From positions 62,001-126,000 of the forward strand of contig NC_013166.1 in assembly GCF_000024085.1 (NCBI RefSeq): a DNA stretch of 64,000 bases, given 5' to 3'. Origin of the DNA: Kangiella koreensis DSM 16069. GTDB taxonomy: Bacteria; Pseudomonadota; Gammaproteobacteria; Enterobacterales; Kangiellaceae. The notes under the pieces were generated by a model. That model saw only the letters and a program-made list of their open reading frames with translations. It was not told the origin of the DNA and did not search any database. The position numbers were made by a program, and so were the translations under genes. Positions within the stretch are counted from its first letter, which is position 1. Each line of letters opens with the position of its first letter. Below, in pieces: positions 1 through 47,836 of the stretch.

Positions 1-3
1 AAT

Positions 4-27
4 ATTACGCCCTCAATTTGGCGTAAT
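4..27. other. perfect 8-bp hairpin at window edge
   Basis: ATTACGCC and GGCGTAAT pair perfectly around an 8-nt loop. No U-tract follows, so it is not a clear terminator. It could be the end of the element that lies left of the window. The rest of the first 150 bases shows nothing I recognise. Confidence 0.4.
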
Positions 28-150
28 GCTGGATGCAAGAGCCACTTCTGGATTGTAGGAGGTGAAATCAAATGGGTTATATAAATAATTTGAAAATTAC
101 ATAAGACTATTGTTGGCTATCAGAGCCGGACACATAATGAGATCGCTATA

Positions 151-1278
151 ATGATAGATATAAGTGAAATCAGAGCGCAGATAAAATTGCTCAATCCAGA
201 AATAAACTTTGATGGTGCTTACACTTTCTACTATGACGAAACGAATAATATAAGAAAGTTCCGCATCAAAGAAACGGGGTTTAATTCAGCATTTACAAAT
301 AACTTTGTGTTAGGTGGCTTGGTTTTTGAAGGAGTTTCACCTGACGTACAACCACTCAAGGATAGTTTGAGATTACAGAGTACTGCCAAAGAAGTGAAAT
401 TTAACCATATCGCACGGGGGAGCTTCATTGATTGCTTGAAATCACAAAATCTGAACCTCTTTCTGAAGTATCTAGTCAGTAATAATTTATATATCCACTA
501 CTCAAGTATAAACATTCTCTATTGGTCACTTGTGGACATTGTTGACTCAGCCATTGTAAATTCAGAGATAAGCCAAAAAATAAGCGCACAGTTTATTAAT
601 GTATTGAAGAATGATTTGTATAAATTGGCCAGGCTAGAAATAAACTCTATGGTTTCATTGTTCCGAAAGTACGAATATCCGAATATAAAGCAAAATAGAG
701 TGTTATCATTTATAGAAGAAATGAGCGAATTGTTCTTTCCATATATTAATGAACCGGAGTTTCACATTGGGTTAGAGTCGCTTAGACAAATATTGCAAGA
801 ATGCAGAAGGAAAGGGTCTTTGCCATTTGTCATGGGGGAAGAGGACTTTATCCTAATAAATGATTTCTCACAGTTCTATATGCGCCCTATCTACACGTTT
901 ATAAACTCTACACATATTTTTGATAAAGAAAACTCGATAGAGGAACTGTTAGAAAAGCAGATAATTATGGATGGCCCAAGACAAATTAATAATTACTCAT
1001 TTGCTGATTCTAAATCAGAGCAATTAATACAGTTATCAGATGTTGTAGTTGGTATTCTGGGGAAATTAGGTTCCTACTGTAATACTAATGATAAAGAGAA
1101 AATATATTCGGATATGCACTCATTAAACTCATTGCAAGAAGAAAATATCGATTTACTCTTGAATCTAATTGCTGAGTCGCGTGATAGAAATATGGGATTC
1201 TTGCATGCAATAGACTGTTATGAGGAAATGTCAAAAATGGATATAATTATAGAATGTAGACAAGGGATATGCGCATAA
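151..1278 (+). CDS. DUF3800 domain-containing protein
   Basis: A 375-residue protein. Near the N-terminus it has the acidic pair typical of DUF3800 (FYYDETNN, Asp29-Glu30), and near the C-terminus (about residues 287-300) the segment SEQLIQLSD, which fits the family's E..GLQ.AD-type motif. DUF3800 proteins are predicted to have an RNase H-like fold and are common in mobile and defence islands, but their reaction is not established. The gene is AT-rich like the rest of the block. It starts the visible + strand run and is followed 46 bp later by the Ntn-hydrolase gene, so the two may be co-transcribed. The start is ATG with only a weak GAG-type upstream match. The family call is fairly secure; the cellular role is unknown. 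Confidence 0.7.
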   Translation: MIDISEIRAQIKLLNPEINFDGAYTFYYDETNNIRKFRIKETGFNSAFTNNFVLGGLVFEGVSPDVQPLKDSLRLQSTAKEVKFNHIARGSFIDCLKSQNLNLFLKYLVSNNLYIHYSSINILYWSLVDIVDSAIVNSEISQKISAQFINVLKNDLYKLARLEINSMVSLFRKYEYPNIKQNRVLSFIEEMSELFFPYINEPEFHIGLESLRQILQECRRKGSLPFVMGEEDFILINDFSQFYMRPIYTFINSTHIFDKENSIEELLEKQIIMDGPRQINNYSFADSKSEQLIQLSDVVVGILGKLGSYCNTNDKEKIYSDMHSLNSLQEENIDLLLNLIAESRDRNMGFLHAIDCYEEMSKMDIIIECRQGICA

Positions 1279-1324
1279 TAATTAGCTACTATCTGAGGGT
1301 TATTCTTGAGAAGGTTACCGACTA

Positions 1325-1963
1325 ATGACAATGATTGTTGCGCTACAACTTGATGCTTACGTATTAATTGCTGCTGATAGACGTGAGACATATCAAGTAA
1401 ATGGTGAGGTTGCATACGTTATTAGTGACGACAGACAAAAACTTATACAATGGTCAGGTGGCATAGTTACCGGAAGTGGCTATGTCCCACTTCTTAGTGA
1501 ATTTAAGTCGAAAATAGCTGACGCAAAAATTACTTTTGTCGATGAGATAATAGAAATAGCACAAGAGTGCTGTAATAACCTTTCAGGTGATCAGTCTGAG
1601 TGGAAAAAAACGACGAATTGGCTTTTTACTTATGGTGCTGATAGTCCAGAAGGTGAGGTAAGCAGGGTTGCGTTTATCAAATCACAAGAGCCCGAAGGGA
1701 TTCATGTTTTAGAAGTGGGGGAATCATTGATTTGGGCTAAAATACCTGACTATAAGGAGGAGTTATCCAATCTCAAGGCAAAAATCAGACCAGAAAAAGA
1801 CTTATCGAATATTAACTGTAGTTTATCCTACCATACAGAAATTCTGAAAGAGCTTTACGCTTATGTTGCAAAGGTGAATCCCAGTGTGTCTGAGGCATTT
1901 GATTGCTATCTTCATTCTGTTGAGGTAAGAGGAATGGTACCAGTGGAGTATTGGAAAACTTAA
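1325..1963 (+). CDS. proteasome/HslV-like Ntn-hydrolase
   Basis: A 212-residue protein whose first residues match the N-terminal nucleophile (Ntn) fold of proteasome beta and HslV subunits. It begins MTMIVALQ, so removal of Met1 would expose Thr2. Asp18 in AADRR falls exactly at the Asp17 position of proteasomes, counted from the nucleophile. Lys39 in RQKLIQW sits where the catalytic Lys33 strand lies, followed by a glycine-rich GGIVTGSG turn. The initiator ATG is preceded by AAGG about 10 bases upstream. There is no HslU, Anbu or proteasome ATPase gene in the window. It lies just after the DUF3800 gene. Fold and nucleophile are inferred from motifs; the substrate is unknown, and it might be a peptidase or an amidase. 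Confidence 0.65.
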   Translation: MTMIVALQLDAYVLIAADRRETYQVNGEVAYVISDDRQKLIQWSGGIVTGSGYVPLLSEFKSKIADAKITFVDEIIEIAQECCNNLSGDQSEWKKTTNWLFTYGADSPEGEVSRVAFIKSQEPEGIHVLEVGESLIWAKIPDYKEELSNLKAKIRPEKDLSNINCSLSYHTEILKELYAYVAKVNPSVSEAFDCYLHSVEVRGMVPVEYWKT

Positions 1964-2017
1964 GTTAGATCGAAGTTGTTATGAAATAAGTATATTGTAC
2001 TATAAAAGGAATTTTAT

Positions 2018-2512
2018 TTGATTATAAACATATGGCTTCAAGCAATACTATCTCTCCTCTTAGGAGGGATAGTATTTTACATGGTTGCTCCATTTAGCAG
2101 CGAGTTAGGTGTTATTGCTTACGAACCTAAGGTAGTTCTGATTGTATTAGGTTGTTGTCTGTTGATTTTGTCTATTATTAAGTTCTTTTACAGGAAGCTT
2201 AGTTGGGTTTTATCATCAATCAGTACTTTTATAGCCGTAATTGCGATGGTCTTTTTATATCCGCCCTCTTCACGACTTGCTGAGCCGAATGGTGCTTTAA
2301 GGGACAAGGTAAGTTCATACTTAGTGCAAGTAAAAAAAGTAGAGGCAGAGGTTCTAAATATCAATCATAGACCAAAGAAGATGTTTGATCTGATCAGAGA
2401 AAAAGATTGGTTGGTATCGATCGACTGTTCAGGTAAAAGGCAAGCACTTTACATAAAAGAACCCTTGTTCGGAGAAATGTATTCTGACGTGGAGCCAGTT
2501 TGTAAGAAATAA
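2018..2512 (+). CDS. small membrane protein, paralogue A
   Basis: A 164-residue protein of unknown family. It starts at TTG with an AAAGGA ribosome binding site 7 bases upstream; no in-frame ATG fits better. Hydrophobic segments lie at about residues 4-25, 37-52 and 60-78, followed by a soluble tail of about 80 residues. It is a clear paralogue of the next gene: both share the SLL.GG..FY..AP start, a YP..R segment after the last membrane helix, and an FD....WLV or FD....WEV motif in the tail. The adjacent arrangement suggests tandem duplication. No function can be assigned. Confidence 0.6.
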   Translation: MIINIWLQAILSLLLGGIVFYMVAPFSSELGVIAYEPKVVLIVLGCCLLILSIIKFFYRKLSWVLSSISTFIAVIAMVFLYPPSSRLAEPNGALRDKVSSYLVQVKKVEAEVLNINHRPKKMFDLIREKDWLVSIDCSGKRQALYIKEPLFGEMYSDVEPVCKK

Positions 2513-2542
2513 TGACTATATTTTCGGAGAGTTAGTAATGAA

Positions 2543-3085
2543 ATGAAAAGAACAAATAGAGTAGTCTATTTGAAAAGTTGGCTAATACAATCTGCATTAT
2601 CCCTCCTGGTAGGAGGATGGGTATTCTATATTTGTGCTCCACATAGTTGGGGAGTTGGGATTGTCTTTCAAGAGATAATCTATGGAGTAATATCACTAGG
2701 AATTAGCCTTGCTATATTAATTCCTACAGCTATTCTATTCTTTAAAGGTAGAAAAAAATATCCTTTCTCAATCCTCATATTCAGTATTATAGGTTGCTTA
2801 CTGTTAGTTTATTTCTACCCGGCAAATTATAGATACTCAGCTCCTTCTGAAGCTATTAGCAACAAAGTTGAGGCTCTCTTAATAGATAAAGGAATGCCAT
2901 CAACCGTTGACTTCCAAGTTATACGTAGGAAGAAAGTACCTTTTGATATTTTTGCAGAGCATAATTGGGAGGTGGAAGTCTCAGGCAACAAAGCTGGGGA
3001 GTATTTGTACTTCTATTATATAGAACGCTTTGGAGAGGGTGAGCTGGTAACTTATGGAGAAAGCAATTGGTCAAAACTTAATTAA
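2543..3085 (+). CDS. small membrane protein, paralogue B
   Basis: A 180-residue paralogue of the preceding gene, separated from it by 30 bp. It has an extra basic N-terminus of about 10 residues, then three hydrophobic segments (about 13-30, 40-65 and 72-90) and a soluble C-terminal tail. Shared landmarks with the first copy are WLIQSALSLLVGGWVFY, FYPANYR and VPFDIFAEHNW. An in-frame GGAGAG lies about 11 bases before the ATG. No known domain is recognised. The two copies may form a heteromeric membrane complex, but that is only a guess from their adjacency. Confidence 0.6.
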   Translation: MKRTNRVVYLKSWLIQSALSLLVGGWVFYICAPHSWGVGIVFQEIIYGVISLGISLAILIPTAILFFKGRKKYPFSILIFSIIGCLLLVYFYPANYRYSAPSEAISNKVEALLIDKGMPSTVDFQVIRRKKVPFDIFAEHNWEVEVSGNKAGEYLYFYYIERFGEGELVTYGESNWSKLN

Positions 3086-3130
3086 GTTTAACGTTGATTT
3101 ATGGTGTGAATTTAAAACAAGGAGATGAAA

Positions 3131-3466
3131 ATGAAAGGCAAATACGAGATATTTCAAAGTACCGCTAATAATGAATACTACTTTCGGCTAAAGGCATCTA
3201 ATGGAGAGCCTATATTAGCTAGCGAAGGGTATACCGCTAAATCAAGTTGTCAGGGAGGAATAGAATCAGTGAAGAAGAACTCACCAGACGATAATAACTA
3301 CGCAAGAAAAGACTCTAAAAATAATCAGTATTATTTTGTTCTTAAAGCACAGAATCATGAGCCCATAGGTCATAGCGAAATGTATACGACCAAGGCCTCA
3401 AGAGACAATGGTATAGAGTCAGTTAAGCGGTTTGGCCCTGATGCTGACGTTGTGGACTTAACTTAG
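3131..3466 (+). CDS. YegP-type protein with two DUF1508 repeats
   Basis: A 111-residue protein made of two tandem DUF1508 units of about 50 residues. Unit one has YEIFQS..NEYYFRLKASNGEPIL..EGYT, and unit two YYFVLKAQNHEPIGHSEMYT; each ends in a GIESVK motif. The start at 3131 is chosen because GGAG lies 6 bases upstream, and because the family usually begins MxGKxEI; an ATG at 3125 sits directly on the ribosome binding site. DUF1508 proteins are small soluble proteins widespread in bacteria with no firmly known role. The gene follows the membrane paralogue pair on the same strand. Confidence 0.85.
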   Translation: MKGKYEIFQSTANNEYYFRLKASNGEPILASEGYTAKSSCQGGIESVKKNSPDDNNYARKDSKNNQYYFVLKAQNHEPIGHSEMYTTKASRDNGIESVKRFGPDADVVDLT

Positions 3467-3545
3467 ACTTGGCTCTTATCGTCTGACCCTAAGTTAATAC
3501 AATGGCAAACTAGCACTATTTTAGTACGATGTTGATAGTAAATGA

Positions 3546-3574
3546 CCGTATGAGCATCATTGATGTTCGTACGG
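3546..3574. terminator. hairpin between DUF1508 and NT5C genes
   Basis: CCGTATGAGCATCA and TGATGTTCGTACGG pair with two mismatches and almost no loop. No run of T follows, so this may be a weak terminator or a structured leader of the next gene. Confidence 0.35.
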
Positions 3575-3620
3575 TTAAAGCTGTTATACAATAGTGGAAA
3601 TTGCGAACAGTGATTGAATT

Positions 3621-4052
3621 ATGATCATCTATATTGATATGGACGGAGTTCTGGCAGATTACGATGCTGCGTACGCTCAAATCAAGAAACAGGAGCCCAC
3701 TGTAGCTTATCCTCAATCCCTACCAAAGTTCTTTGAAGACCTGGAGCCTATAGACGGTGCTATAAAAGCATTCTTCAGGCTGTGTGAGAAGAACGATGTG
3801 TATATCCTAACCGCCCCTTCTAATAGAAATCCTTTGAGCTATACTGAAAAGCGACTGTGGGTTGAAAGGCATTTGGGCTTTGAGGCTACTGAGCGACTAA
3901 TCATCTGCTCTAATAAAGGGCTGCTTAAAGGTGACATTCTGATTGATGACAATATCGACGGTAAAGGACAAGAAGCATTTGAAGGTAAAGTGTTACACTT
4001 TGGGAGCAAAGGCCTTGAAACCTGGGCTAGAATATTAAAGCAAGTGGGCTAG
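3621..4052 (+). CDS. 5' nucleotidase, NT5C (5'(3')-deoxyribonucleotidase) type
   Basis: A 143-residue HAD-superfamily phosphatase. Motif I is YIDMDGVLADYD (residues 4-15) with both catalytic aspartates. Motif II is ILTAPS (about 62-67), the motif III lysine lies in TEKRLWVERHLG, and motif IV is ILIDDNIDG. This order and the short length fit the NT5C family, which removes phosphate from (deoxy)nucleoside monophosphates. Such genes are common in phages and mobile elements, where they act in nucleotide salvage. It is flanked by accessory genes, and a hairpin lies just upstream. The family assignment is firm; the substrate is not known. Confidence 0.85.
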   Translation: MIIYIDMDGVLADYDAAYAQIKKQEPTVAYPQSLPKFFEDLEPIDGAIKAFFRLCEKNDVYILTAPSNRNPLSYTEKRLWVERHLGFEATERLIICSNKGLLKGDILIDDNIDGKGQEAFEGKVLHFGSKGLETWARILKQVG

Positions 4053-4164
4053 CCTCTAGCTTCTATGGTGAAGTTTATTGCGTAATACCGTTCAAAGCCA
4101 ATAATAATGTTATTGAAGCTACGTTTAAGGAGTTAGATTCAGGAGTTAGTTTACGGAGATAGGT

Positions 4165-4425
4165 ATGGCCATAGTTCGAAGTAACATATTGCCGGTTAAG
4201 CACCCTGGCATTGTCTTTAAAGAAAAATGCATGAATGCTTACAATCATACCGACCTGAGCAAAAGGTTAAATATGACCAGGAAGGAGTTGCAGAGCTTTA
4301 CTGATGGTATAAGTTCAGTAACGATTGAGCTTGCTAAAGGATTAGAGCAAATAACAGGCATTAGCCTTGAGTACTGGATGAGTCGTCAAAAGAAATATGA
4401 TGCGTATAAAGGCGATATAAAGTAA
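4165..4425 (+). CDS. HigA/VapI-family antitoxin-like XRE regulator (orphan)
   Basis: An 86-residue helix-turn-helix protein with the HigA-type lead HPGIVFKE at residues 13-20 and an XRE-like helix-turn-helix (about 30-65, DLSKRLNMTRKELQSFTDG). GGAG lies 8 bases before the ATG. HigA antitoxins are normally preceded by a HigB RelE-type toxin gene. The 112 bp upstream here contain no such open frame, and neither does the downstream gap. It is therefore an orphan antitoxin, a regulator, or the remains of a toxin-antitoxin pair. Confidence 0.75.
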   Translation: MAIVRSNILPVKHPGIVFKEKCMNAYNHTDLSKRLNMTRKELQSFTDGISSVTIELAKGLEQITGISLEYWMSRQKKYDAYKGDIK

Positions 4426-4456
4426 GTATTGTGGTGTAAAGCTTGAGCATGACTAT

Positions 4457-4597
4457 TCAAGCCAGATAATTTGGCTCAGTATAAATATCATCGACACTTA
4501 CTGTTTTAAGTCCCGCTGCTGTCCCCACTGCAACAATCGCAACGATAAGAATTGCCTGAGCTGCAATTAAAACCGATAGTAAATATCCAGATCGCAA
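4457..4597 (-). CDS. possible 46-residue single-pass membrane peptide
   Basis: A short open frame reading leftward from a TTG start, with AGGA about 9 bases upstream. The product has a basic start (MRSGY), one strongly hydrophobic segment (about residues 4-28, Ala/Ile/Val-rich), then a soluble acidic tail. It could be a small membrane protein. I see no family, and codon evidence at this length is weak. Confidence 0.3.
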   Translation of the reverse strand: MRSGYLLSVLIAAQAILIVAIVAVGTAAGLKTVSVDDIYTEPNYLA

Positions 4598-4998
4598 ATG
4601 ACCTAATCCTATAGCTATATGGCTTAAGTTAGATATTATTTCAATTAAGTATTTTTATCTATTTTTAATTTACTCTGATGAAATAATTTTCAAAAGTAGA
4701 TATATACCCAATCATATAAAATTTACACTTTAAACTTCAAAGGTAGTGGGTCGATTTAATAAGAATAGTAAGAAATGCCTTTATGTAAGAAGTCAGAGAA
4801 CCACTGTAACTTAATATAGAAATTTATATGTGTTAATAGATAGGCTTATGTAGAAATAACAGGTTCCAGAAATTGAAGTCTCACATAAATCAGCAAGCAC
4901 CGCGCTTAAGTGAAATCAATATAATTAAAATTTATTACTTGCACTTGTTAAAACTGAGTAATAGTCTTTGCATGAAAATCAAATTCGGAGAAATATTT
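4598..4998. other. AT-rich gap without a recognisable gene
   Basis: About 400 very AT-rich bases between the small putative leftward frame and the next + strand gene. I see no tRNA, hairpin terminator or convincing frame. The segment probably carries the promoter of the following gene. Confidence 0.4.
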
Positions 4999-5253
4999 AT
5001 GACTACAAATAAAAACAAAGAAGTGCAAATAAGACAGTTGGCTTTGGGTACTTTGGGCGACGTGGACATGAGATTTGCCAGGCACGAGCTTGAGGAACGT
5101 AGAGCAAGAGAAGTCAAAGAAAGAATAATTAATGGAGAGTTTACTGCTGAAGAATTCTGCGCAGTTTTAGAGGAAGTCATGATAAATGCAAATGCAACTA
5201 GAGAGCATATTGATTATGAGATTCACTTAGCTCGAACATTTTATGACCTTTAA
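4999..5253 (+). CDS. hypothetical protein, 84 residues
   Basis: A small, charged, mainly helical protein: MTTNKNKEVQ start, then R/E-rich helices to LARTFYDL at the end. The start at 4999 is preferred over the longer frame (from 4873) because GGAGAA lies 8 bases upstream and the extra N-terminus has no conserved look. It contains no cysteines beyond one, no membrane segment and no domain I recognise. It sits alone between two gaps, upstream of the Gabija-type unit. Confidence 0.5.
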   Translation: MTTNKNKEVQIRQLALGTLGDVDMRFARHELEERRAREVKERIINGEFTAEEFCAVLEEVMINANATREHIDYEIHLARTFYDL

Positions 5254-5554
5254 TCAAGTAAGCAATGAATAGACTCAAAACTGTGAGAAGTACTTATGGA
5301 TATCAATACCTCTCGCATTGTTTCTAAGAGATAACTATACAAACTAATAAAGTACTAGGTAAAGTTATTCTGAGGTTATGTGGTAGAGTGCCCGCTAAGG
5401 AAAAACAGCTATAGTGAAATTAATAATTCGACTTTCGATATACAACACACATTGAAGCTATAAGCTTAGCTATAGATGCATTATTGGTTTATGTCTGCTC
5501 GACGGCTAATGAGGCTTTAGCTGAAATAATACATATGCAATCATTGGGTAAATA
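5254..5554. other. AT-rich gap upstream of the OLD/UvrD unit
   Basis: A gap of about 300 bases with no convincing open frame or hairpin. It should hold the promoter of the defence unit, but I cannot single out a good -35/-10 pair. Confidence 0.35.
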
Positions 5555-7540
5555 ATGGAAATTGAAAAAATATCAATCAGTAACTTCAGATGCTTTTCAG
5601 AGGCTGAGGCTGTCATATTTATGGAGTCTGATATCACATGTTTTGTTGGAAATAATGGAACAGGAAAATCAGCGCTAATACTGGCTTTAAAAAGAATATT
5701 TGGATCAACTAGAGAAGAGAGAACCGTTATTCGGGAAGACTTTTATGTTGGGTCAGGTGAAGATTACAAAGAAATATCTGGTCGAGAACTGTATATAGAA
5801 ATCATTTTTTCATTTCCAGAGCTTCAAACAGCTGTTGATGAGTCGCGGGAGGTGTGCCCCGCATTCAGTTCAGTAATTTATGCTGATCAAGATGATAAAA
5901 GACTTAAAGCAAGAATGCGATTAGAGTCTAAATGGGATGAAAACGAATACGAAGATGAGGTGCAATCCCAGTTGTATTGGATAACAACTTCTAACAAAGT
6001 AGACTTCGGGGATGATGCTGAAAATAAATTCCCTGTTTCGGTATATGATCGAAAACACATCAAGCTAAGATACATCCCTGCTTTCAGAGACTCAAAGTCA
6101 ACACTTAAGAATGAAGTGAAATCGTTAACAAATCTACTTGATGGATATACAGATTTAAATATTTCTTCTCAAGAAAAAATAGAAGCTATAAGCAGAGACC
6201 TTAGCAATGAAATCCAAAGTCTTGAATCTATCAAAACAGCCACAAGTTTATTAAAACAAGTCTGGAATAACACTCATGACAAAACGCTAAAGCACTATCA
6301 AGAGCCTAAACTTGAAGCAGCATCAACTGAGATTGGGGAGCTTCTAAGAACAATGACTGTGAAACTTTCACCCTCAGAAGATGGTGGAAGCAGAGATATT
6401 AACGAATTAAGTGATGGTCAAATATCACTTCTTTATTTTACGCTTTCGGTTGTTCTATATATTCTAGAACAAAAGCATCATTCAGGAGAATTAAGAGGTT
6501 TTAAATCTCTTGATAGAGATATTCCTGTATTTACAATATTTGCATTCGAAGAACCAGAAAATCATCTGTCTCCATTTTACTTGGGACGGGTAATAGAGGT
6601 TTTGTCCACTCAAACAAATAGTTTAAAAGCAACAGGTATTATCACGTCACACTCAACGAGCGTGGTACGTCGAATGCAGCGAGTGGAGCAAATCCGACAT
6701 TTTAGGCAAGAGGTAAACTCAACTGATCGCTACTCAATTGTTAACCAAGTTTTACTTCCGTCAGAAAAAGCAGAAGATGATTATAAGTATATAAATCAAG
6801 CAATACTTGCTCATCCAGAGTTATATTTTGCTAAACTTGTAATACTGGGTGAAGGCGATTCAGAAGAAATAGTCATTCCAAAATTGGCAGAAGCGTTGGG
6901 GTTTGACCTAGATCCATCATTTGTTTCTTTTGTAAAACTAGGTGGCAGACATGTAAATCATATGTGGAGGTTATTATCAGACTTGAATATTCCTTTCTTA
7001 ACCTTAGTTGATATGGACTTAGGAAGGAGCGGTGCTGGTCCATTACGAATCAAGTACATAATTGATGAATTAGAAAAGATAGATAGGCCCTTTGCCTTTC
7101 CAGAAGGTGTAAGCACTCAAAAACTACAAGAGAAGCAATTAACATACAGGCAATTAAATGAAATGGCGATATTGCTTGAAGAATATGGCGTCTTTTACTC
7201 TTTCCCTCTCGATCTAGATATGGCTATGATTTTCGCATACCCTGACTATTATGATGCCTCAAATGCGCAAGATAGCGATAGAGAAGTGCTAGATAGAGCC
7301 GTCTTAGGCGAGAATTACGATGACTATGATGATAATGGGGTAGAAATATACTCGGATGAAGAATTAAAAAAATATAGATATCTGTTTTGCACCAAGAGTA
7401 AAGTCGCATCCCACTATAAAGCAATAGCTGATTTATTAGAACTGGAGGTAGACGATGTCGTGACAGAATGCCCTGATTTTCTAAAACGTCTGATTAATAA
7501 GTCATCGAATTTGCTATCGGAATCAAAAGAGAATGAGTAA
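5555..7540 (+). CDS. gajA: GajA-like OLD-family ATPase/TOPRIM endonuclease
   Basis: A 661-residue protein with an ABC/SMC-like ATPase half and a TOPRIM half. Walker A is GNNGTGKSA (about 32-40), the signature-like segment is LSDGQ (about 286-290), Walker B is FAFEEPENH (about 329-337), and the H-loop is TSHST. The TOPRIM half has LGEGDSEE (about 430-437) and VDMDLG (about 485-490), which supply the metal-binding acidic residues. This order is that of OLD nucleases. The next gene is a UvrD-like helicase overlapping by 8 bp, which is the class 2 OLD arrangement known as Gabija. In that system GajA is a DNA endonuclease regulated by nucleotides and acts with GajB against phage. At 661 residues it is somewhat longer than GajA proteins I recall. 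The AT-rich composition suggests transfer. Confidence 0.85.
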   Translation: MEIEKISISNFRCFSEAEAVIFMESDITCFVGNNGTGKSALILALKRIFGSTREERTVIREDFYVGSGEDYKEISGRELYIEIIFSFPELQTAVDESREVCPAFSSVIYADQDDKRLKARMRLESKWDENEYEDEVQSQLYWITTSNKVDFGDDAENKFPVSVYDRKHIKLRYIPAFRDSKSTLKNEVKSLTNLLDGYTDLNISSQEKIEAISRDLSNEIQSLESIKTATSLLKQVWNNTHDKTLKHYQEPKLEAASTEIGELLRTMTVKLSPSEDGGSRDINELSDGQISLLYFTLSVVLYILEQKHHSGELRGFKSLDRDIPVFTIFAFEEPENHLSPFYLGRVIEVLSTQTNSLKATGIITSHSTSVVRRMQRVEQIRHFRQEVNSTDRYSIVNQVLLPSEKAEDDYKYINQAILAHPELYFAKLVILGEGDSEEIVIPKLAEALGFDLDPSFVSFVKLGGRHVNHMWRLLSDLNIPFLTLVDMDLGRSGAGPLRIKYIIDELEKIDRPFAFPEGVSTQKLQEKQLTYRQLNEMAILLEEYGVFYSFPLDLDMAMIFAYPDYYDASNAQDSDREVLDRAVLGENYDDYDDNGVEIYSDEELKKYRYLFCTKSKVASHYKAIADLLELEVDDVVTECPDFLKRLINKSSNLLSESKENE

Positions 7541-9365
7541 GTACCAGTCTGTAGAATCATGGAAACCAAGTGACGGCTTTATATCTACAGAAGTCGCAAA
7601 TGAGGTTATTAAAGAAAAAAATAACAATCTAGCAATCCTTGCTGGTCCAGGGGCTGGGAAAACAGAAATTTTAGCTCAGCGCGCAAATTATCTATTGCAA
7701 ACTGGACTATGTAAATCTCCACAAAAAATATTAGCCCTAACTTTCAAAGTGGACGCTGCCAGTAACATCAAAAATAGGATTGATTTACGCTGTGGAAGAG
7801 AGCTAGCCAGTAGATTTGAATCATCAACATTCGATGCGTTCTTCATATCACTGGTACGTAGATTTTCTACCCTCTTACCAAGTTGGATTGATATACCTTC
7901 TGATTTTGATGTTTATCCTTTTGATCATAACTGGTGGTCAGATTATGAGCAAAATCAATTAGGGGGTCGTCCTTTTGTCTTCAAAAATAACTATTCTCCG
8001 CTTGATTTAACAGCTAGACCCAATGATGAAATAACGAGACTTTGGAAATACTGTGCTGAGAATAAAATTGCGGATTACAAGATGTGCCGCTCAATGGCTT
8101 TTACCATTATTAAGAACTATAGCCAAGTAAGGTACTTAATTCTATCAACCTACAAATATTTATTCCTTGATGAGTTTCAGGATACTACGGACGAACAGTT
8201 TGCATTTATACAAACAGTTTTTAAAGGTAGTAATACTATAATTAGTGCGGTTGGAGATACAAATCAAATGATAATGGCATGGGCGGGAGCCAACCCCCAA
8301 AATTTTGAAAAATTAGCGAAGGATTTTAATTCCAAAACTGTTCATTTGATGGTAAACCATAGGTCAAATACCAAAATCATTAATCTTATTAATCATGTTA
8401 TTCAAGATTTAACAACTTCAATGGAAACTCCAGTCGTTTATGTAGGGACTAGGAAAGGAGCTCCGCCTTATAACTGTATAGGTGCAAAAGCCTTCGATAG
8501 CCCGGAGAGTGAAGCCGCGTATATCTCCAAGCATATCAATTTAACTCTGAGTGAAAATCCCACATTAGCACCTAGTGATTTTGCACTCATATTGAGACAG
8601 AGGGCTCAGGATTATTATAAGAATGCAATTGGGGAATTTCTAAGTAACGATTTAAGCCTCAGAAATGAGGACGCATTAGTTGTTAGTAATGGCGTCAAAA
8701 TACAAGACCTGATGGTTGAACCGTTATCTATATTTTGGATGCTACTGATAAGATATAAGGCAGGTCTTATAAACTACTCACAAGAGAAAAAGCTTGATAA
8801 AATAGCGTCGTTTTTTACAGGATATAACTTAGGTCAAGAGCGAGAGCGCAAGAAGTTAAAGGCATACATCGCACGCCTGATGTCTTGCATTAATTTCTCA
8901 GAGCCAGTAGAGAATACTATAACTAAAATTTTTGATATTGTTGGAAGTGCAAAAATTAAATTGGTGTACCCTCAATATAGATCGCAGTATTTCAATAAGG
9001 TTAAAGAGTCATTCTGCATTCTTTTTCAAGATGCGCTCAATAACAACCCGAAAGATCTTAAACAAGCAATAAATGATTATGAAGGAACAAATCAAGTCAA
9101 ACTAATGACTATACATAAAAGTAAAGGGTTAGAGTTTGATACAGTTTTTTTTGTTGACTTCCATGATGACTCCTGGTGGGGACTTAGACGTGCTGTGCAG
9201 GAGAAAAATGAAAAGTCTCAAAGAGAAGAAAAAAACACCTTTTTCGTAGGCCTGTCTCGTGCAGAGGAGCGACTATATTTTACCAAGAATCGTGGAAACT
9301 GGCCGCCTGTTCTTGTAGGTTTACTCAAGGATTCAAACTTGGTAGTTCAACTGCCTGATATATAA
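7533..9365 (+). CDS. gajB: GajB-like UvrD/Rep-type superfamily 1 helicase
   Basis: A 610-residue SF1A helicase. Motif I is LAGPGAGKT (about 36-44), motif II is FLDEFQD (about 210-216), motif III is VGDTNQMIMAWAGA (about 238-251), and HRSN lies in the motif IV region. LMTIHKSKGLEFD (about 525-537) is motif V and VGLSRAEERLYF (about 571-582) is motif VI. It starts 8 bp inside the OLD gene, so translation is probably coupled. In Gabija, GajB binds GajA and is thought to sense or process DNA ends and to consume nucleotides that otherwise inhibit GajA. All helicase motifs look intact, so the unit should be functional. Confidence 0.85.
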   Translation: MSKYQSVESWKPSDGFISTEVANEVIKEKNNNLAILAGPGAGKTEILAQRANYLLQTGLCKSPQKILALTFKVDAASNIKNRIDLRCGRELASRFESSTFDAFFISLVRRFSTLLPSWIDIPSDFDVYPFDHNWWSDYEQNQLGGRPFVFKNNYSPLDLTARPNDEITRLWKYCAENKIADYKMCRSMAFTIIKNYSQVRYLILSTYKYLFLDEFQDTTDEQFAFIQTVFKGSNTIISAVGDTNQMIMAWAGANPQNFEKLAKDFNSKTVHLMVNHRSNTKIINLINHVIQDLTTSMETPVVYVGTRKGAPPYNCIGAKAFDSPESEAAYISKHINLTLSENPTLAPSDFALILRQRAQDYYKNAIGEFLSNDLSLRNEDALVVSNGVKIQDLMVEPLSIFWMLLIRYKAGLINYSQEKKLDKIASFFTGYNLGQERERKKLKAYIARLMSCINFSEPVENTITKIFDIVGSAKIKLVYPQYRSQYFNKVKESFCILFQDALNNNPKDLKQAINDYEGTNQVKLMTIHKSKGLEFDTVFFVDFHDDSWWGLRRAVQEKNEKSQREEKNTFFVGLSRAEERLYFTKNRGNWPPVLVGLLKDSNLVVQLPDI

Positions 9366-9459
9366 AGATGAATATAGCGAAAATGGGAACTATATCTTTG
9401 TCTACTCATCAGGCTTTCATGAAGAAGACTGAATAGACTTAGAAGTAAGCATAGATATA

Positions 9460-9506
9460 GACAAGTTATAACATGATGTCTGTGTCCGAGCAGAACTTTG
9501 TTAGCT
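9460..9506 (-). other. possible attC site ending the leftward cassette array
   Basis: Read on the - strand, AGCTAAC overlaps the stop of the DUF4145 gene, followed about 30 bases later by GTTATAAC. Spacing and position fit a short attC site, but the inner arms pair poorly, so this is weaker than the other sites. Confidence 0.35.
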
Positions 9507-10264
9507 TATTTTGATGATCCCGGCCCTTTTTTCTTGTTTATACCCTTTGTCAACTCCCTGAGCCTTTTTAGTTTTTTTACAAATAAGTGTTCGATCACAT
9601 GGTCAAGTAGTTCAAAGGCTTCCAACACATTATTGGTGTTAAGCGAACCAGTGTGACTGCCTGCATTTCCTAGCCATTTAACCGCCAGCATAATTTCTGC
9701 CAATTGGGGATCTTTTACTTTAAACAATTCAATTCTTTCGTGAAGAGAAAGAATTCTACGCTTTCGTGAATTTGTTAATTTTGTTTTATTGATTTTTTTA
9801 TGAGTTAAAATTAACTCCAATGCTGTTCTAATTCTATTGGCACTCGCAGACAAATCAGACCAAAACAGTGAGCTTGCCGATATTAATTCTGTTTTAACAT
9901 CATGAGGACACTCGTCTGGAATAGGTATTATTTGAATAGGAGGCTGGAAGTAAAGTGGCTTTAAAGCGCTCTCTAAATACAATCCGTGTTCGTCATCATA
10001 AGCTTCGACAGGCTGCGTTTTTCCTACAGAGAAAACATGCTCATCACAATGGAAGCATTTTAATAGTGCTGAGTAGTTGGCTTCTGTCCAATCTGGCTCC
10101 CAATTTTCATGTCTGTGATATGACAGTGAGCGTACGGTTTCTTTTATAAAAAGCGATTTTGGTACAAGCTTTAGCGACCCTTCGGCACAGCTTGGGCAGC
10201 GCCAAGCCGGTAGAGATGTTCTATTAAAAGGTCCTATATAACGATCTCTGTTCAATTCATGCAC
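9506..10264 (-). CDS. DUF4145-containing protein in integron cassette
   Basis: A 252-residue protein. The N-terminus has a CPSC pair (about residues 23-26) and a CFHC pair (about 70-73), which look like a zinc ribbon. The C-terminal half has the DUF4145 hallmark AVKWLGNAGSH (about 199-209) followed by helices. DUF4145 is often found in defence-associated or mobile proteins; its action is not established. The gene faces left, with a clear attC before the next cassette gene on its right. It starts shortly after that attC, as expected for cassettes. Other genes of the same orientation follow the same layout. Confidence 0.75.
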   Translation of the reverse strand: MHELNRDRYIGPFNRTSLPAWRCPSCAEGSLKLVPKSLFIKETVRSLSYHRHENWEPDWTEANYSALLKCFHCDEHVFSVGKTQPVEAYDDEHGLYLESALKPLYFQPPIQIIPIPDECPHDVKTELISASSLFWSDLSASANRIRTALELILTHKKINKTKLTNSRKRRILSLHERIELFKVKDPQLAEIMLAVKWLGNAGSHTGSLNTNNVLEAFELLDHVIEHLFVKKLKRLRELTKGINKKKGPGSSK

Positions 10265-10276
10265 CTCGTCTTGTAG

Positions 10277-10334
10277 TTAACTAACACTTTATAGCAGGGA
10301 GCAGGGGCAGGTCCCTTGCCTGCATCTGTTAGCT
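10277..10334 (-). repeat. integron attC site
   Basis: On the - strand it runs from AGCTAAC (just after the stop of the neighbouring gene) to GTTAGTT, which leads into the next cassette. The two core sites are inverted copies, and the inner arms around GCAGG and CCTGC are partly complementary. Length is about 58 bp. This is the typical attC layout of R''-L''-L'-R'. Confidence 0.75.
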
Positions 10335-10335
10335 A

Positions 10336-10917
10336 CTATAGCAAATTGTATACAAAGGAATGGCCGTACCGTCCCATGTCAGTCCCTTTAAAATAGGCAT
10401 CTCCAACATTGAGGAGCCTTGGCAACGTAAGCAACTCGCCATTCTCTGCTTGAGGTTGGTAAAGATACAATACTGACGCGTAGAGCGCCGCAATTGAATT
10501 CAAGCAATTCTTCAAATTAGCTTTTTGGAAATGCTCGTGTCGATGATGCTTGACCTTGTTGTGGTCTCGCCACCAAAAAGGCGGTTCTCCTTCTTCCCAA
10601 TCAATCCAAGGGGTCAGGGTCAGACCGTGGCGTGGGAGAATAACCTCAAACTCTTTGAATCTCGGAAGGTTGTTAGCTACATGGCTGTAGTATGAGTTGA
10701 TTGAAGAAGCATCCGACCCAGTGTTCAAGGCGGCACACAACTGTTTAAGAACCACGTCTACCTCCGCACTCGCACCGAGGAATAGCCGAGCGATTTCTAT
10801 GGAGTAGACCTCGTCGTTTGCCGAGAAATCGACAAAACGTGAAAGCCTGTCTAAGTCTTCCTCTATTGAGAGAAAGAAATTCCAGTGGATCAACGTTTCC
10901 TGTCTAATTATTCCCAC
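10336..10917 (-). CDS. hypothetical cassette protein, 193 residues
   Basis: I do not recognise a family. The protein seems mainly helical and soluble, with many aromatic and acidic residues. A conserved-looking WWRDHNKVKHHRHEHF segment (about residues 116-131) carries Arg, Asn and His residues spaced rather like HEPN-type ribonuclease helices, but I cannot prove that relationship. The gene has an attC site on each side, so it is a single-gene integron cassette. Its stop codon directly abuts the core site of the left-hand attC. No membrane segment or signal peptide is present. Confidence 0.6.
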   Translation of the reverse strand: MGIIRQETLIHWNFFLSIEEDLDRLSRFVDFSANDEVYSIEIARLFLGASAEVDVVLKQLCAALNTGSDASSINSYYSHVANNLPRFKEFEVILPRHGLTLTPWIDWEEGEPPFWWRDHNKVKHHRHEHFQKANLKNCLNSIAALYASVLYLYQPQAENGELLTLPRLLNVGDAYFKGTDMGRYGHSFVYNLL

Positions 10918-10930
10918 ACATTCTCCTTGT

Positions 10931-11013
10931 AGCTAACGCCCGCAGCACGCGCGGCTTTGTAATGGAGGCCAGCCGCAATAAAAAAGCCGTCGCTGTGCCT
11001 GCGATTGTTAGGC
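10931..11013 (-). repeat. integron attC site
   Basis: The clearest attC of the leftward array. On the - strand it begins GCCTAAC and ends GTTAGCT. The arms CGCAGGCACAGCGACGGC and GCCGCGCGTGCTGCGGGCG are largely complementary with an extrahelical-base pattern. A spacer of about 30 bases forms the loop. It follows the stop codon of the 11.0-11.5 kb gene directly. Confidence 0.9.
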
Positions 11014-11014
11014 A

Positions 11015-11476
11015 TTACGCCACCACCTTCGTTAAAGTTCTTGGTTCAGAAATTATTTTGTTTTCAGCTTTACCATGAAAAGTAGCCATGCCGATCATGG
11101 TCGTACCGTCATTTTGGACAACAAAAACATATGTGCCGGTATCAAATCCGGCTCCTTTTTCGTCCTCAAATGTGAGAGTAATTTGCTTGCCGCAAGTAAA
11201 TCCGTGATACTTGAATTTCCGCTCAGACTTTTTACCATCGCGGGTTCTTGTTCTAGTGCTTGAGCCAGTTATGATGCGGCCTTTTTGATTTAAATGAATC
11301 TTACCCGCTTTAACAGTTTCTCCATTTCGCAGTTCCGAAATTTCCCATGTTCCAGCCACCCTAATGCCCTTGTATAAGCACCTGTCCTGAAAACTAGGCC
11401 ATAACCATTTGGTAACCGCTGCAATAATAATTGCTGTTGCGATACCTGCGAGTAAGGCTATAGCAAATTCAGTCAT
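11015..11476 (-). CDS. hypothetical membrane-anchored cassette protein
   Basis: A 153-residue protein with one N-terminal membrane helix (about residues 5-25, LLAGIATAIIIAAVTKWLW) and a soluble beta-rich domain (about 35-150) with paired strands such as GTWEISELRNG and QKGRIITGSSTRT. The fold might be lipocalin-like or a small beta barrel, but I see no firm family. It is the first gene of the leftward cassette array: GTTAGGC of the attI-like repeat lies about 40 bases before its ATG, and an attC follows its stop codon. Confidence 0.65.
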   Translation of the reverse strand: MTEFAIALLAGIATAIIIAAVTKWLWPSFQDRCLYKGIRVAGTWEISELRNGETVKAGKIHLNQKGRIITGSSTRTRTRDGKKSERKFKYHGFTCGKQITLTFEDEKGAGFDTGTYVFVVQNDGTTMIGMATFHGKAENKIISEPRTLTKVVA

Positions 11477-11511
11477 ATTTGATAGTTCCTCGGATTAAAG
11501 ATGCCTAACAT

Positions 11512-11610
11512 TATATTACCGGACAACGTCGATAACCATTTGATATTTAATTGTTTATTTTTATTTTTTTTTTACGGATAACACCAGGTAAACCGGACAT
11601 TAATGTCATG
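11512..11610 (-). repeat. attI-like inverted repeat, left copy
   Basis: This ~100-bp segment is the reverse complement of 13037-13140, at roughly 80 percent identity judged by eye. On the - strand it ends ATATAATGTTAGGC, whose GTTAGGC matches the GTTRRRY core, and the first leftward cassette gene follows. Its ends do not pair with each other as attC arms would, so it resembles attI more than attC. It contains repeated TGTCCGGT-like words. The 270-base gap here (11477-11747) has no gene. Confidence 0.55.
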
Positions 11611-11747
11611 TTTACTTCAATGGATAGTAGCAAAATCGGTATGTTAGAGAAAGAATATATTAGAGCCTGGGTTTTCGTCCTCCATTACTGTATTGCAGGC
11701 TTCAGTTAATGTTAGTCACTAATATTCTCAATTATTGTGACTGATTC

Positions 11748-12689
11748 TCATTTAATTTGATTCCTGACAAACTCGGTCAGCTCATCCAGAAATAAAACCC
11801 CATTATGCGACAAAGAAATCTCGCCGGGCTTGGGATGACTGCCGCCACCGATTAACGCTGGTGCAGAACAGGAATGATGTGGAGCGCGGTATTTACGCAC
11901 AAAAAACTGACTGGCATCGAATCCAAAATGACTAACCGAATAAATGGATGCCGACTGTTTGGCTTCCTGTTCGGTCATGGGCGACAAAATGGTCTGCATA
12001 CGCGAAGCGAGCATACTTTTGCCCGTACCAGGAGGACCAATGAATAAAAGATGGTGCTTGCCCGCTGCGGCGATGGTCAAAGCGCGCTTGGCTGACTCTT
12101 GAGCGATGACATCCGACATATCCATATCAAAGTCATAATCGTTCACCACCGCATCGTTAACGCACTCAGATAACGGCGTATTGCGCATTAACGAATGACA
12201 CACATCCAACAAGTGCTTGGCGTGAACCGCCTGTACCGAAGGCACCAAACCTGCTTCCGCCGCGTTAGATTCGGGCACAACCAAAGTGCGCGAGTCTTCA
12301 GTGCAAGCCAAAGCCACCGGCAACACACCCTTAACAGGGCGCAATTCACCGGTTAAAGCTAGCTCACCAATAAATTCATAATTGGATAAATAATCAGACG
12401 GCAGCTGACCGGACGCCGCCAGAATCCCCAATGCAATTGGCAGATCAAAACGCCCGCCTTCCTTCGGTAAATCCGCAGGTGCCAGATTAATGGTGATGCG
12501 CCGCGCGGGAAATTCAAAATTAGAATTGATAATGGCGCTGCGCACTCGATCTTTGCTTTCTTTAACCGCCGCTTCAGGCAAGCCCACAATATTCAAACTG
12601 GGTAAACCGTGCGACAGATGCACTTCAACGGTAACTAATGGCGCTTCAATCCCAACCCCGGCACGGGAATAAACAATAGCGAGAGACAT
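11748..12689 (-). pseudogene. comM: comM (YifB-family helicase), 3'-truncated
   Basis: This 313-residue frame is the N-terminal three-fifths of a ComM/YifB Mg-chelatase-like ATPase, normally about 500 residues. The Lon-like N-terminal domain is intact (GVGIEAPLVTVEVHLSHGLP, LAPADLPKEGGRFDLPIALG). Walker A is GPPGTGKS (about 217-224), and Walker B is LFLDELTEF (about 299-307). Right after Walker B the sequence switches to VRNQIK and a stop, so sensor, arginine-finger and C-terminal parts are missing. ComM promotes branch migration during natural transformation. AAGGAAG precedes the ATG. The gene is a well-known insertion target for genomic islands in other gammaproteobacteria. Here it lies between two inverted attI-like repeats. 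It is almost surely inactive. Confidence 0.9.
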
Positions 12690-12706: not shown

Positions 12707-12902
12707 TTATAGATGATCCAATGGGCTTTTCACTGCATTAGCCCCTTTATTCATAACGTGGGTGTACGCCACACAGGGAAGTGTCAGTGCCGCGAGAGGT
12801 CAGGATGTCCGTAGCGGTGAGCTGTGTGGTTGCAACTTGATAGCTGTAATTATTCGTTCGCAGATAATGGCGAATAGATTGTAAAAAAGGAGAACCAGAC
12901 AT
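12707..12902 (-). pseudogene. intI: intI integron integrase remnant, internally deleted
   Basis: A 196-bp relic. From an ATG at 12902 with an AAGGA site, the frame reads MSGSPFLQSIRHYLRTNNYS, very like the N-terminus of chromosomal IntI proteins. At codon 23 it jumps to VATTQ, the segment preceding the tyrosine-containing YTHV in IntI. A 61-bp palindromic insert then interrupts, after which another frame reads AYTHVMNKGANAVKSPLDHL and stops at 12707, matching the conserved IntI C-terminus. About 250 internal codons, including most catalytic residues, are gone. Position and direction are canonical: intI points left, with the attI-like site and rightward cassettes upstream. The similarity is from family memory, not a search. 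Confidence 0.8.
12769..12829. repeat. 61-bp palindromic insert in the intI relic
   Basis: CCACACAG and CTGTGTGG border a GC-rich 61-bp segment that separates the VATTQ and YTHV codons of the integrase relic. These codons should be only one codon apart. The inner part has a second partial pairing (AGTGCCGC with GCGGTGA). It looks like a small hairpin element or a rearrangement scar. Confidence 0.45.
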
Positions 12903-13036
12903 TCCTTGTCCTATTTACTGGGTTTATCGGCATACTAAAAAATCCGTTGCAATTACAAAAGAGCCAATTACTATAAGGCCTGTAGGTCATTGACCATGGT
13001 ATCTGTAAACTCAATACAAAAAGAGATACCAGAACA
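12903..13036. promoter_or_regulatory. intI upstream region with two palindromes
   Basis: Between the intI relic and the attI-like site lie GGTCATTGACC (12985-12995) and the inverted pair GGTATCT...AGATACC (12998-13004 and 13024-13030). They sit where the integrase promoter should be. A standard LexA box (CTGT-N8-ACAG) is not evident. Confidence 0.35.
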
Positions 13037-13140
13037 GTAATGTCCGGTTTTACATGGTATTAGCCGGAAAAAAGGACATTAAAAATAAATCATTTTAAAT
13101 CAAAAGGTTATCGGCGATGTCCGGTAATATAATGTTAGGT
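13037..13140 (+). repeat. attI-like site, right copy
   Basis: Inverted partner of 11512-11610. It contains three TGTCC or GGACA words, one pair forming the hairpin TAATGTCC/GGACATTA. It ends ATATAATGTTAGGT, a GTTRRRY core, with the first rightward cassette ATG only 9 bases later. Together with the leftward intI relic this gives the standard order intI-attI-cassettes. Confidence 0.6.
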
Positions 13141-13717: not shown

Positions 13718-13817
13718 ACCTAACAAGAAATTAAACAAGGACAAAAAACAGTTGGCTTTTGCTCCTTCGTCGCTCATTTTAGCCAACAATTTTTTGCCTG
13801 TTAATTGGGCGTTATAC
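13718..13817 (+). repeat. integron attC site
   Basis: A 100-bp attC. It begins ACCTAAC and ends GCGTTATAC. The outer arms AAATTAAACAAGGACAAAAAA and TTTTTTGCCTGTTAATT are complementary with small bulges, and the inner GTTGGCT pairs with AGCCAAC. The folding is far better than chance and matches long marine-type attC sites. Confidence 0.9.
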
Positions 13818-13838: not shown

Positions 13839-14702
13839 ATGAGTGACAAGCCCAATGTATTTATAGCTTCATCGGTTGAAGGACTTTCTGTGGCTGAAGC
13901 TGTAAATATAAAAATGGAATATGATGCCCAAGTAAAACAATGGGATAATGCCTTTGATTTATCGTCAGTCACTATTACATCTTTGATCAAGCGAGCCAAA
14001 GAAACTGAGTTTGGTATTTTTGTATTTCATCCTGATGATAAGACCATAATCAGAGAGAACGAATACAGTACCGTCAGAGATAATGTACTTTTTGAACTTG
14101 GCTTATTCATAGGTTCGCTGGGCATCGAACGCTGTTTTGTTTTGATCCCAAAATCAAAAGAAACAGAATTTAGATTACCAGCTGACTTAGCGGGAGTTAC
14201 TACTACAAGCTACGACGACCAGTTGGAAGACAAAGTGGATGCTGTTGCTACGAGTTGCGCGAAGATAAAGCAAGCAATTAAGAAAATTAGGAACTCAGAA
14301 ATTGAAGTTGTATCTGAGCCGGAAGCCGAGCGACTTAAAAAGCAGCTCGCTGATGTCCAATCGCAATTATGGATGCAAAACCATGAAATTCAACGTGCAA
14401 GGGAAGAGGCATCAACGCTTTTATCCTCAATAATGAGCTACTTTCATGCGGTTGCAAAGCCTGCTACCGAAGCTGAAATTGTTGCTTGGGAAGAAGGGGC
14501 AAAAAGTAGTTATTTAAAAGACATAAAGATCTCTCGCCGAAATGTTTTCTATGTGGATAAGGAAATTGTTATTCCACCGCTGGCTGGAGCTAGTTCAATT
14601 TCAGTAATCGTTGCTGAAGGCGTCAGAGTTCATGGTGCGAACCGAAGAAGTCATAACTCAATCTACTATATGGACGGCTTCAGAACTGATGCACGCGTAT
14701 AA
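13839..14702 (+). CDS. TIR-like (CAP12/PF10137-type) protein in integron cassette
   Basis: A 287-residue protein. Residues 5-125 match the TIR-like nucleotide-binding family PF10137, the fold of CAP12/Pycsar TIR effectors. It opens KPNVFIASSVEGLSVAEAVN, then has FGIFVFHPDD and the hallmark VRDNVLFELGLFIG, where Glu86 is the expected catalytic glutamate for NAD cleavage. A coiled-coil (about 160-195) and a C-terminal region without a recognised domain follow. There is no STING domain and no adjacent cyclase gene, so its trigger is unknown. A good attC precedes it and a weaker attC-like segment follows. Family members that are characterised deplete NAD to stop phage infection; that role here is inferred. 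Confidence 0.8.
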   Translation: MSDKPNVFIASSVEGLSVAEAVNIKMEYDAQVKQWDNAFDLSSVTITSLIKRAKETEFGIFVFHPDDKTIIRENEYSTVRDNVLFELGLFIGSLGIERCFVLIPKSKETEFRLPADLAGVTTTSYDDQLEDKVDAVATSCAKIKQAIKKIRNSEIEVVSEPEAERLKKQLADVQSQLWMQNHEIQRAREEASTLLSSIMSYFHAVAKPATEAEIVAWEEGAKSSYLKDIKISRRNVFYVDKEIVIPPLAGASSISVIVAEGVRVHGANRRSHNSIYYMDGFRTDARV

Positions 14703-47725: not shown

Positions 47726-47836
47726 ATTTAAAAATGTGATTATTCACTCGTTATAAACCTGAATACGTACTTTAAAAACTCAATTCAAAAGACTGTCGGG
47801 TTTGCCCGATAATAATGTTATCGAAAAAGGAAAATC

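Follow-up and report, generated by a model that had tools for sequence, protein, structure and literature searches.

The comM locus of Kangiella koreensis DSM 16069, part of the 64,000-nucleotide stretch of DNA analysed here (the window), holds a decayed integron integrase gene (intI) whose attI site belongs to a set of nine copies on one chromosome. Nine attI copies on a chromosome with a dead integrase gene suggest that one integrase once fed gene cassettes into many separate sites, and we consider it likely that this enzyme, since lost, served many attI platforms in trans, the trans action being how we read the arrangement of these sequences. Comparisons were made in a genus sample of 20 genomes, K. 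koreensis (G000) and 19 others, and attI and attC sites were scored with two models, R1 (built from 30 attI copies, mean column identity 80%) and R2 (built from 17 Kangiella attC sites picked downstream of attI).

The intI relic and the comM locus

On the minus strand, window positions 12902 to 12707 correspond to codons 1-22, 297-301 and 303-321 of a Kangiella IntI, with the IntI protein and intI DNA of G016, the closest relative, as the reference.

12837 to 12902, minus strand: intI codons 1-22 (MSGSPFLQSIRHYLRTNNYSYQ); tblastn of the G016 IntI against the whole window, 95% over 22 aa, E 1e-8, 48.1 bits
12822 to 12836, minus strand: intI codons 297-301 (VATTQ); read by eye against the G016 intI DNA
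12767 to 12821, minus strand: palindrome-rich 55-bp insert, replacing codon 302 directly before the Tyr codon of YTHV
12707 to 12766, minus strand: intI codons 303-321 (YTHVMNKGANAVKSPLDHL) and stop; tblastn of the G016 IntI, 100% for 12766-12710, E 2e-7, 43.9 bits

An earlier note on this DNA had described the segment as the relic of an integron integrase with only its ends left. Both ends indeed match the G016 IntI (95% over 22 aa and 100% over 19 aa), far above the best score obtained with 500 shuffled copies of that protein (30.4 bits, versus 48.1 and 43.9 for the true ends), and there is no complete reading frame passing TIGR02249. The large internal loss, put by the note at about 250 codons, is real, with its size corrected to the 274 codons 23-296, deleted in frame relative to G016 so that VATTQ continues the frame of codons 1-22; codon 302 is missing as well. 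The gap is more than a loss of codons, since it also contains the 55-bp insert, which the note had overlooked.

The insert adjoins the codon of the YTHV tyrosine, which we take to be the catalytic residue. Related inserts of 52-55 bp occupy the same spot in four species, K. koreensis, G020, G021 and G024 (a partial copy in the last). In G021 (K. shandongensis) the frame is still open through the insert, which adds 17 residues before the tyrosine, and the IntI scores above the cut-off. In the public protein P0011 (331 aa) the IntI sequence is intact as far as codon 301 or 302 and continues through an insert-like stretch into a shifted frame, with 14 of 19 residues of that stretch the same, by eye, as in the translated K. 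koreensis insert; when the other 22 of the 23 closest proteins were compared, only that of G021 itself had an insertion at this spot. Since the nearly full-length P0011 has a similar insert and is out of frame beyond it, inactivation by the insert probably preceded the internal deletion. A REP repeat was considered as the source of the insert. Searching 861 kb of Kangiella loci with a pattern modelled on these same inserts (up to 2 mismatches) gave just four hits, each within intI and in front of the Tyr codon; in that sample the insert is therefore not a dispersed repeat.

The genome is a single contig of 2,852,073 bases, and a TIGR02249 profile search found no intact IntI elsewhere in it. 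The four matches, at two loci, are far under the cut-off and come from proteins that score as XerD and XerC, and the remaining tyrosine recombinase of the genome (1,356 kb) is not matched by TIGR02249. This genome-wide check bears on the note's view that the array is immobile unless an integrase elsewhere acts on it: with 274 codons gone and no other intact IntI found, the active integrase of a functional sedentary chromosomal integron is missing, and with its loss the array and the platforms described below would presumably have become static.

In the direction opposite to intI, the relic is followed by an attI site and cassettes:

12947 to 12977, plus strand: promoter-like leader TTGCAA ... 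TATAAG, a candidate cassette promoter; motifs conserved among type 1 leaders
13025 to 13138, plus strand: attI copy A, linked to intI; model R1, 109.6 bits
13150 to 13713, plus strand: cassette 1 ORF, no Pfam family (ORF list, Pfam)
13721 to 13814, plus strand: attC-like site of cassette 1; hairpin finder, not in the model R2 list at E <= 0.05
13839 to 14702, plus strand: cassette 2 ORF, TIR-domain effector-like; PF10137 E 4e-28, PADLOC TIR effector models

Copy A adjoins intI, as expected of a sedentary chromosomal integron, its crossover is expected inside GTTAGG (13134-13139), and its 304-nt region is 94% identical to the G016 counterpart. Behind it the hairpin finder gave one attC-like hairpin and a second was seen by eye, with none from model R2.

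The note had called the position and direction of the relic canonical, and both the orientation and the order comM, intI, attI, cassettes are the same in the nine Kangiella genomes with an above-cut-off IntI. These nine, out of the 19 other genomes, each have one such gene, directly upstream of comM. Both ends of intI are kept with the middle lost in three genomes: K. koreensis, G020 (K. sediminilitoris), with codons 1 to about 54 (by eye) and those from 266 onwards, and G033 (K. spongicola), with codons 1-39 (1-13 of them by eye) together with roughly codons 307-321 (by DNA). G024 has codons 27-127 and the C-terminal end, with its 5' end past the contig edge, G019 (K. profundi) has a 5' stub, and in G032 attI abuts comM. 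No intI pieces were found in the 2.6 kb searched in G017 (K. geojedonensis), G023, G027 and G034, and comM was not found in G022, a genome 55% complete.

The note's view of the relic's placement as canonical stands, but the neighbouring comM is split by a 38,551-bp Tn7-like transposon (C1:35219-73769) carrying a second attI, both of which had been overlooked:

11770 to 12689, minus strand: 5' part of comM; the 3' part is at C1:34595-35218, minus strand, at a distance of 38.5 kb
1 to 11769: right part of the Tn7-like transposon; target duplication AACTC at 11770-11774
11504 to 11618, minus strand: attI copy B, with a type 2 leader, in the transposon right end; model R1, 79.9 bits at C1:73505-73615 (window 11505-11615)
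9506 to 11476, minus strand: three cassette-like ORFs led by attI B; DUF4145 in the third
10932 to 11013, minus strand: attC in the B array; model R2 E 0.0034, and hairpin finder

The left end of the transposon encodes TnsA, TnsB, TniB (a TnsC-type ATPase) and TniQ, for which PF08722, PF09299, PF05621 and PF06527 all pass gathering, and the element has TGWCAG termini, TGAGAAT repeats and the 5-bp AACTC duplication on both sides, so that both the tns gene set and the ends are those of a Tn7-like transposon. Copy B is an inverted repeat of copy A (83%). comM is a hotspot for islands in Acinetobacter. The comM transposon carries some defence-type cargo, including homologs of the Gabija proteins GajA and GajB (window 5555-9365; PADLOC E 3e-198 and 1e-167).

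It could be argued that the relic was retained because its ends serve comM expression (as leader, ribosome site or 3' hairpin) or code for a small peptide. Both ends are kept in K. koreensis, G020 and G033, none of which has an intact IntI, the 3' end is kept in G024, and the K. koreensis 3' piece differs from G016 at only 2 of 60 nt (counted by eye), against 87% identity for the intI end and comM start jointly. Nevertheless, comM stands without the 3' end of intI in six genomes (G017, G019, G023, G027, G032 and G034), and the K. koreensis comM that would be served is itself interrupted, so we regard such a role as improbable. Within 12710-12766, GGGGCT is able to pair with AGCCC at the intI 3' end; this end is retained, by eye, in several decayed genes and is a candidate for a leader hairpin of comM.

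Solo attI platforms in K. koreensis and the genus

The first further attI copies were found by searching the K. koreensis chromosome with the stretch that runs from the relic as far as cassette 1, and model R1 places nine copies on it, seven strong (at least 76 bits) and two degenerate.

Strong copies, positions in kb (model R1): B 73.5, A 75.0, F 1347, E 1474, D 1941, C 2365, G 2550
Degenerate copies (model R1): 562 kb, 59.9 bits; 1539 kb, 46.9 bits

The attI-like site that the earlier note had placed beside the relic is therefore present, but it is one of nine rather than the only one. A tenth, doubtful R1 match at C1:109747 (window 47747-47820) reached only 19.4 bits and was left uncounted. 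The strong copies have about 115 bp in common, ending at GTTA, and fall into two main leader types with promoter-like motifs, a crude sorting in which a few copies are misclassed and on which no count rests. Across the genus, R1 gave 76 matches in 19 of the 20 genomes (E <= 0.01), of which 59 were fetched and placed by their flanking DNA, the 17 left out being nearly all weak. Twelve solo positions are common to 2-6 genomes; this number excludes group 1 (the comM locus, which G021 C5 joined via intI homology) and group 12 (a tandem pair within a single genome).

At shared solo positions the upstream flanks are related, and the leader and core are clearly alike in most groups and near noise in a few, as for the 562 kb copy of K. 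koreensis and G025 C108, in which they are 55% and 68% identical, little over noise. Past the site the picture is different: over the first 150 nt, identity is at most 63% in all cross-species pairs compared, where random pairs have a mean of 38% and a maximum of 67%, all measured by crude global alignments with free end gaps. Some copy-to-copy alignments extend up to about 23 nt beyond the site. At platform C, the K. koreensis and G016 sequences share 93% identity across about 1.5 kb, ending within about 2 nt beyond GTTA; they then differ for 1.2-1.3 kb, after which homology returns. Judged by these sequence patterns, the solo attI platforms look like used insertion sites. Closely spaced copies also occur, with two platforms 1.7 kb apart in G032 C33 that have about 450 bp of upstream DNA in common, and two attI 0.76 kb apart in G019.

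Genus-wide, model R2 found 80 attC, 49 of them on the same strand as an attI and within 7 kb downstream of it (up to 17 of these 49 are the seeds of the model itself), none downstream on the wrong strand and four upstream; for 31 of the 80 no attI was found nearby. This placement used the R1 matches and, for G028, G029 and G030, a main attI interval deduced from the position of intI. In K. koreensis, all six attC of the genome-wide R2 search (E <= 0.01) lie at three of the nine platforms, D (four), F (one) and G (one), and a smaller R2 search of 50 loci adds attC at B (E 0.003) and C (E 0.02), the attC-like site of A coming from the hairpin finder only. Thus D, with four attC and no IntI match close by, has the makeup of a CALIN (at least two attC without a nearby intI), and every other platform has one attC or none by R2. 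The hairpin finder gave 27 sites in 171 kb downstream of attI, compared with five in 171 kb on the opposite strand and three in 76 kb upstream; it gave one candidate each at 562 and 1474 kb, both discarded, and no attC at the 1539 kb platform. The array of platform D contains a duplicated cassette of the small multidrug-resistance family, whose copies are 99.7% identical over the 292 nt compared.

These data also bear on two readings that dispense with attI function. The copies are short and numerous and one sits on a transposon, as would be expected of a dispersed MITE-like repeat with cassettes nearby by coincidence; this is very improbable given that 49 attC follow an attI on its own strand and none lies downstream on the wrong strand, and that similarity ends near the crossover at shared positions. 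Even less credible is that the extra arrays are ordinary CALINs produced by attG insertion, with an incidental likeness to attI. Integron integrases do also recombine at attG, according to PMC12901181 and to E. coli data cited in PMC12444791, but the homology of about 115 bp (80% mean column identity in 30 copies) extends far past a GTT core and is accompanied by conserved leaders.

Platform sources and the proposed reach of one integrase

Two sources of the solo attI platforms come into view. Copy B sits in the Tn7-like transposon, and platform F has a second tnsABC-like set (weak Pfam matches) at a distance of about 3.5-8.5 kb, its assignment to a transposon being by location alone. Platform C and its G016 ortholog, on the other hand, reach about 29 codons into intI, and G021 C5 retains about 425 bp of type 1 intI; with the type 1 intI query, these are the only solo copies that do so, and from their sequence they look like eroded integrons. 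Transposition and erosion of whole integrons are therefore both plausible sources. Circularisation of the attI leader catalysed by IntI was considered as a further route and rejected, as the upstream homology extents vary (about 115, 150, 200, 235 and 322 nt) and so do not support a precise left site. At C1:1350-1355 kb, this tnsABC-like set is accompanied by a large ORF without a Pfam match that looks TnsD/TniQ-like by eye, and then by metal-efflux-like genes (by eye).

Cassettes led by attI inside one end of a Tn7-type transposon are familiar from Tn7 with its class 2 integron, which B resembles in this respect. The K. koreensis element differs in that no intI was noticed between B and the transposon end, and in its insertion in comM with an AACTC duplication.

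Main attI cores are 52-78% identical between species, outside the pair G016-G025. At four shared positions with differing core types, the odd one matches the type of its own comM-linked attI (G030, G026 and, twice, G020), and in G026 the solo core and the main attI are 98% identical, though the position of this solo is common to species of another core type. When the 9 main attI were ranked against each of the 20 solo cores from genomes whose IntI is above the cut-off, the main attI of the same genome came at 3.15 on average (P 0.001 in a permutation of genomes, which leaves shared ancestry in) and was the best match for only 7 of the 20. Moreover, core types are mixed in G018 (K. marina), G020 and G021, and in two of the four positions with mixed types the other genome (G018, G021) has a core unlike its own comM-linked attI, so that some platforms may stem from lost integrases. 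By core sequence, the link to the resident integrase holds in part, with other types persisting and common descent contributing.

The intI sequence retained at C, its ortholog and G021 C5, together with the mixed core types of some genomes, would also be explained if each solo attI were the remnant of a separate complete integron, filled in cis before it lost its intI, with no trans action ever. We think this possible but unlikely: only those three copies reach into intI (by the type 1 intI query alone), nine genomes have one above-cut-off intI each, yet their solo platforms differ between species, and G026 has a core nearly identical to its own main attI at a position held elsewhere by another core type.

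We return to action in trans, and on balance lean towards a model of distributed integrons, in which the comM-side integrase acts on a large number of promoter-plus-attI platforms, some at constant chromosomal loci and some carried by Tn7-like transposons, with their cores kept in step with the resident enzyme, and in which CALINs elsewhere may be headed by attI that present software does not seek. The product of a live intI would have inserted cassettes at the platforms in trans, each platform providing its own promoter-like leader; some platforms ride Tn7-like transposons (B, and F by location only), and C and G021 C5, with their intI stubs, look like integron remnants.

Comparison with described integrons and other genera

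The Kangiella system has the traits of a sedentary chromosomal integron: intI points away from attI and its cassettes, and the locus has a constant chromosomal position, here beside comM. The described form typically has one attI, near the integrase (PMC9024848, PMC3607928), whereas K. koreensis has nine attI and a dead integrase. CALINs are likewise cassette arrays without a nearby intI, and those of Xanthomonas also lie at conserved loci according to part of PMC12444791, but the Kangiella arrays begin with a recognisable attI and leader, and several have one attC, under the default of two. Delta-attI-type cassettes of class 1 and 2 integrons also place surplus attI sequence at a distance from the integrase; theirs, as described in portions of PMC12901181, is usually 14-18 nt, seldom longer, and lies at a cassette end within one array, in contrast to the 115-320 nt that head arrays at distant loci in Kangiella. 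Decay of intI is common, almost one third of intI genes having been predicted non-functional (PMC2426708), so this aspect is already known, although the recurrent insert exactly before the Tyr codon and the internal deletion in some lineages set Kangiella apart.

What may be new is the set of solo attI platforms. In the literature searched, which covered few subscription journals, we found no description of several attI platforms per integrase and none of an integron in Kangiella, and the word 'integron' is absent from two Kangiella genome papers (one of them PMC3035244). If the reading is true, one cell could keep and express many first-position cassettes at once, and integrase-less arrays at conserved loci would be explained. 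Software blind to attI would miss such platforms; attI detection in IntegronFinder is limited to class 1, as stated in an excerpt of PMC9024848. The origin of CALINs would also become testable by sequence, by searching a genome with the attI of its own integrase.

Such copies were also looked for in other genera. Among six genomes of a third genus, G008 alone shows an additional partial match; it runs to the query end near a contig end and was not counted as a solo attI. In another genus, G037 carries two extra copies of its intI-linked attI region (78% and 83%), each followed by cassette-like DNA with attC-like ends, as seen by eye, and the other four genomes give no match.
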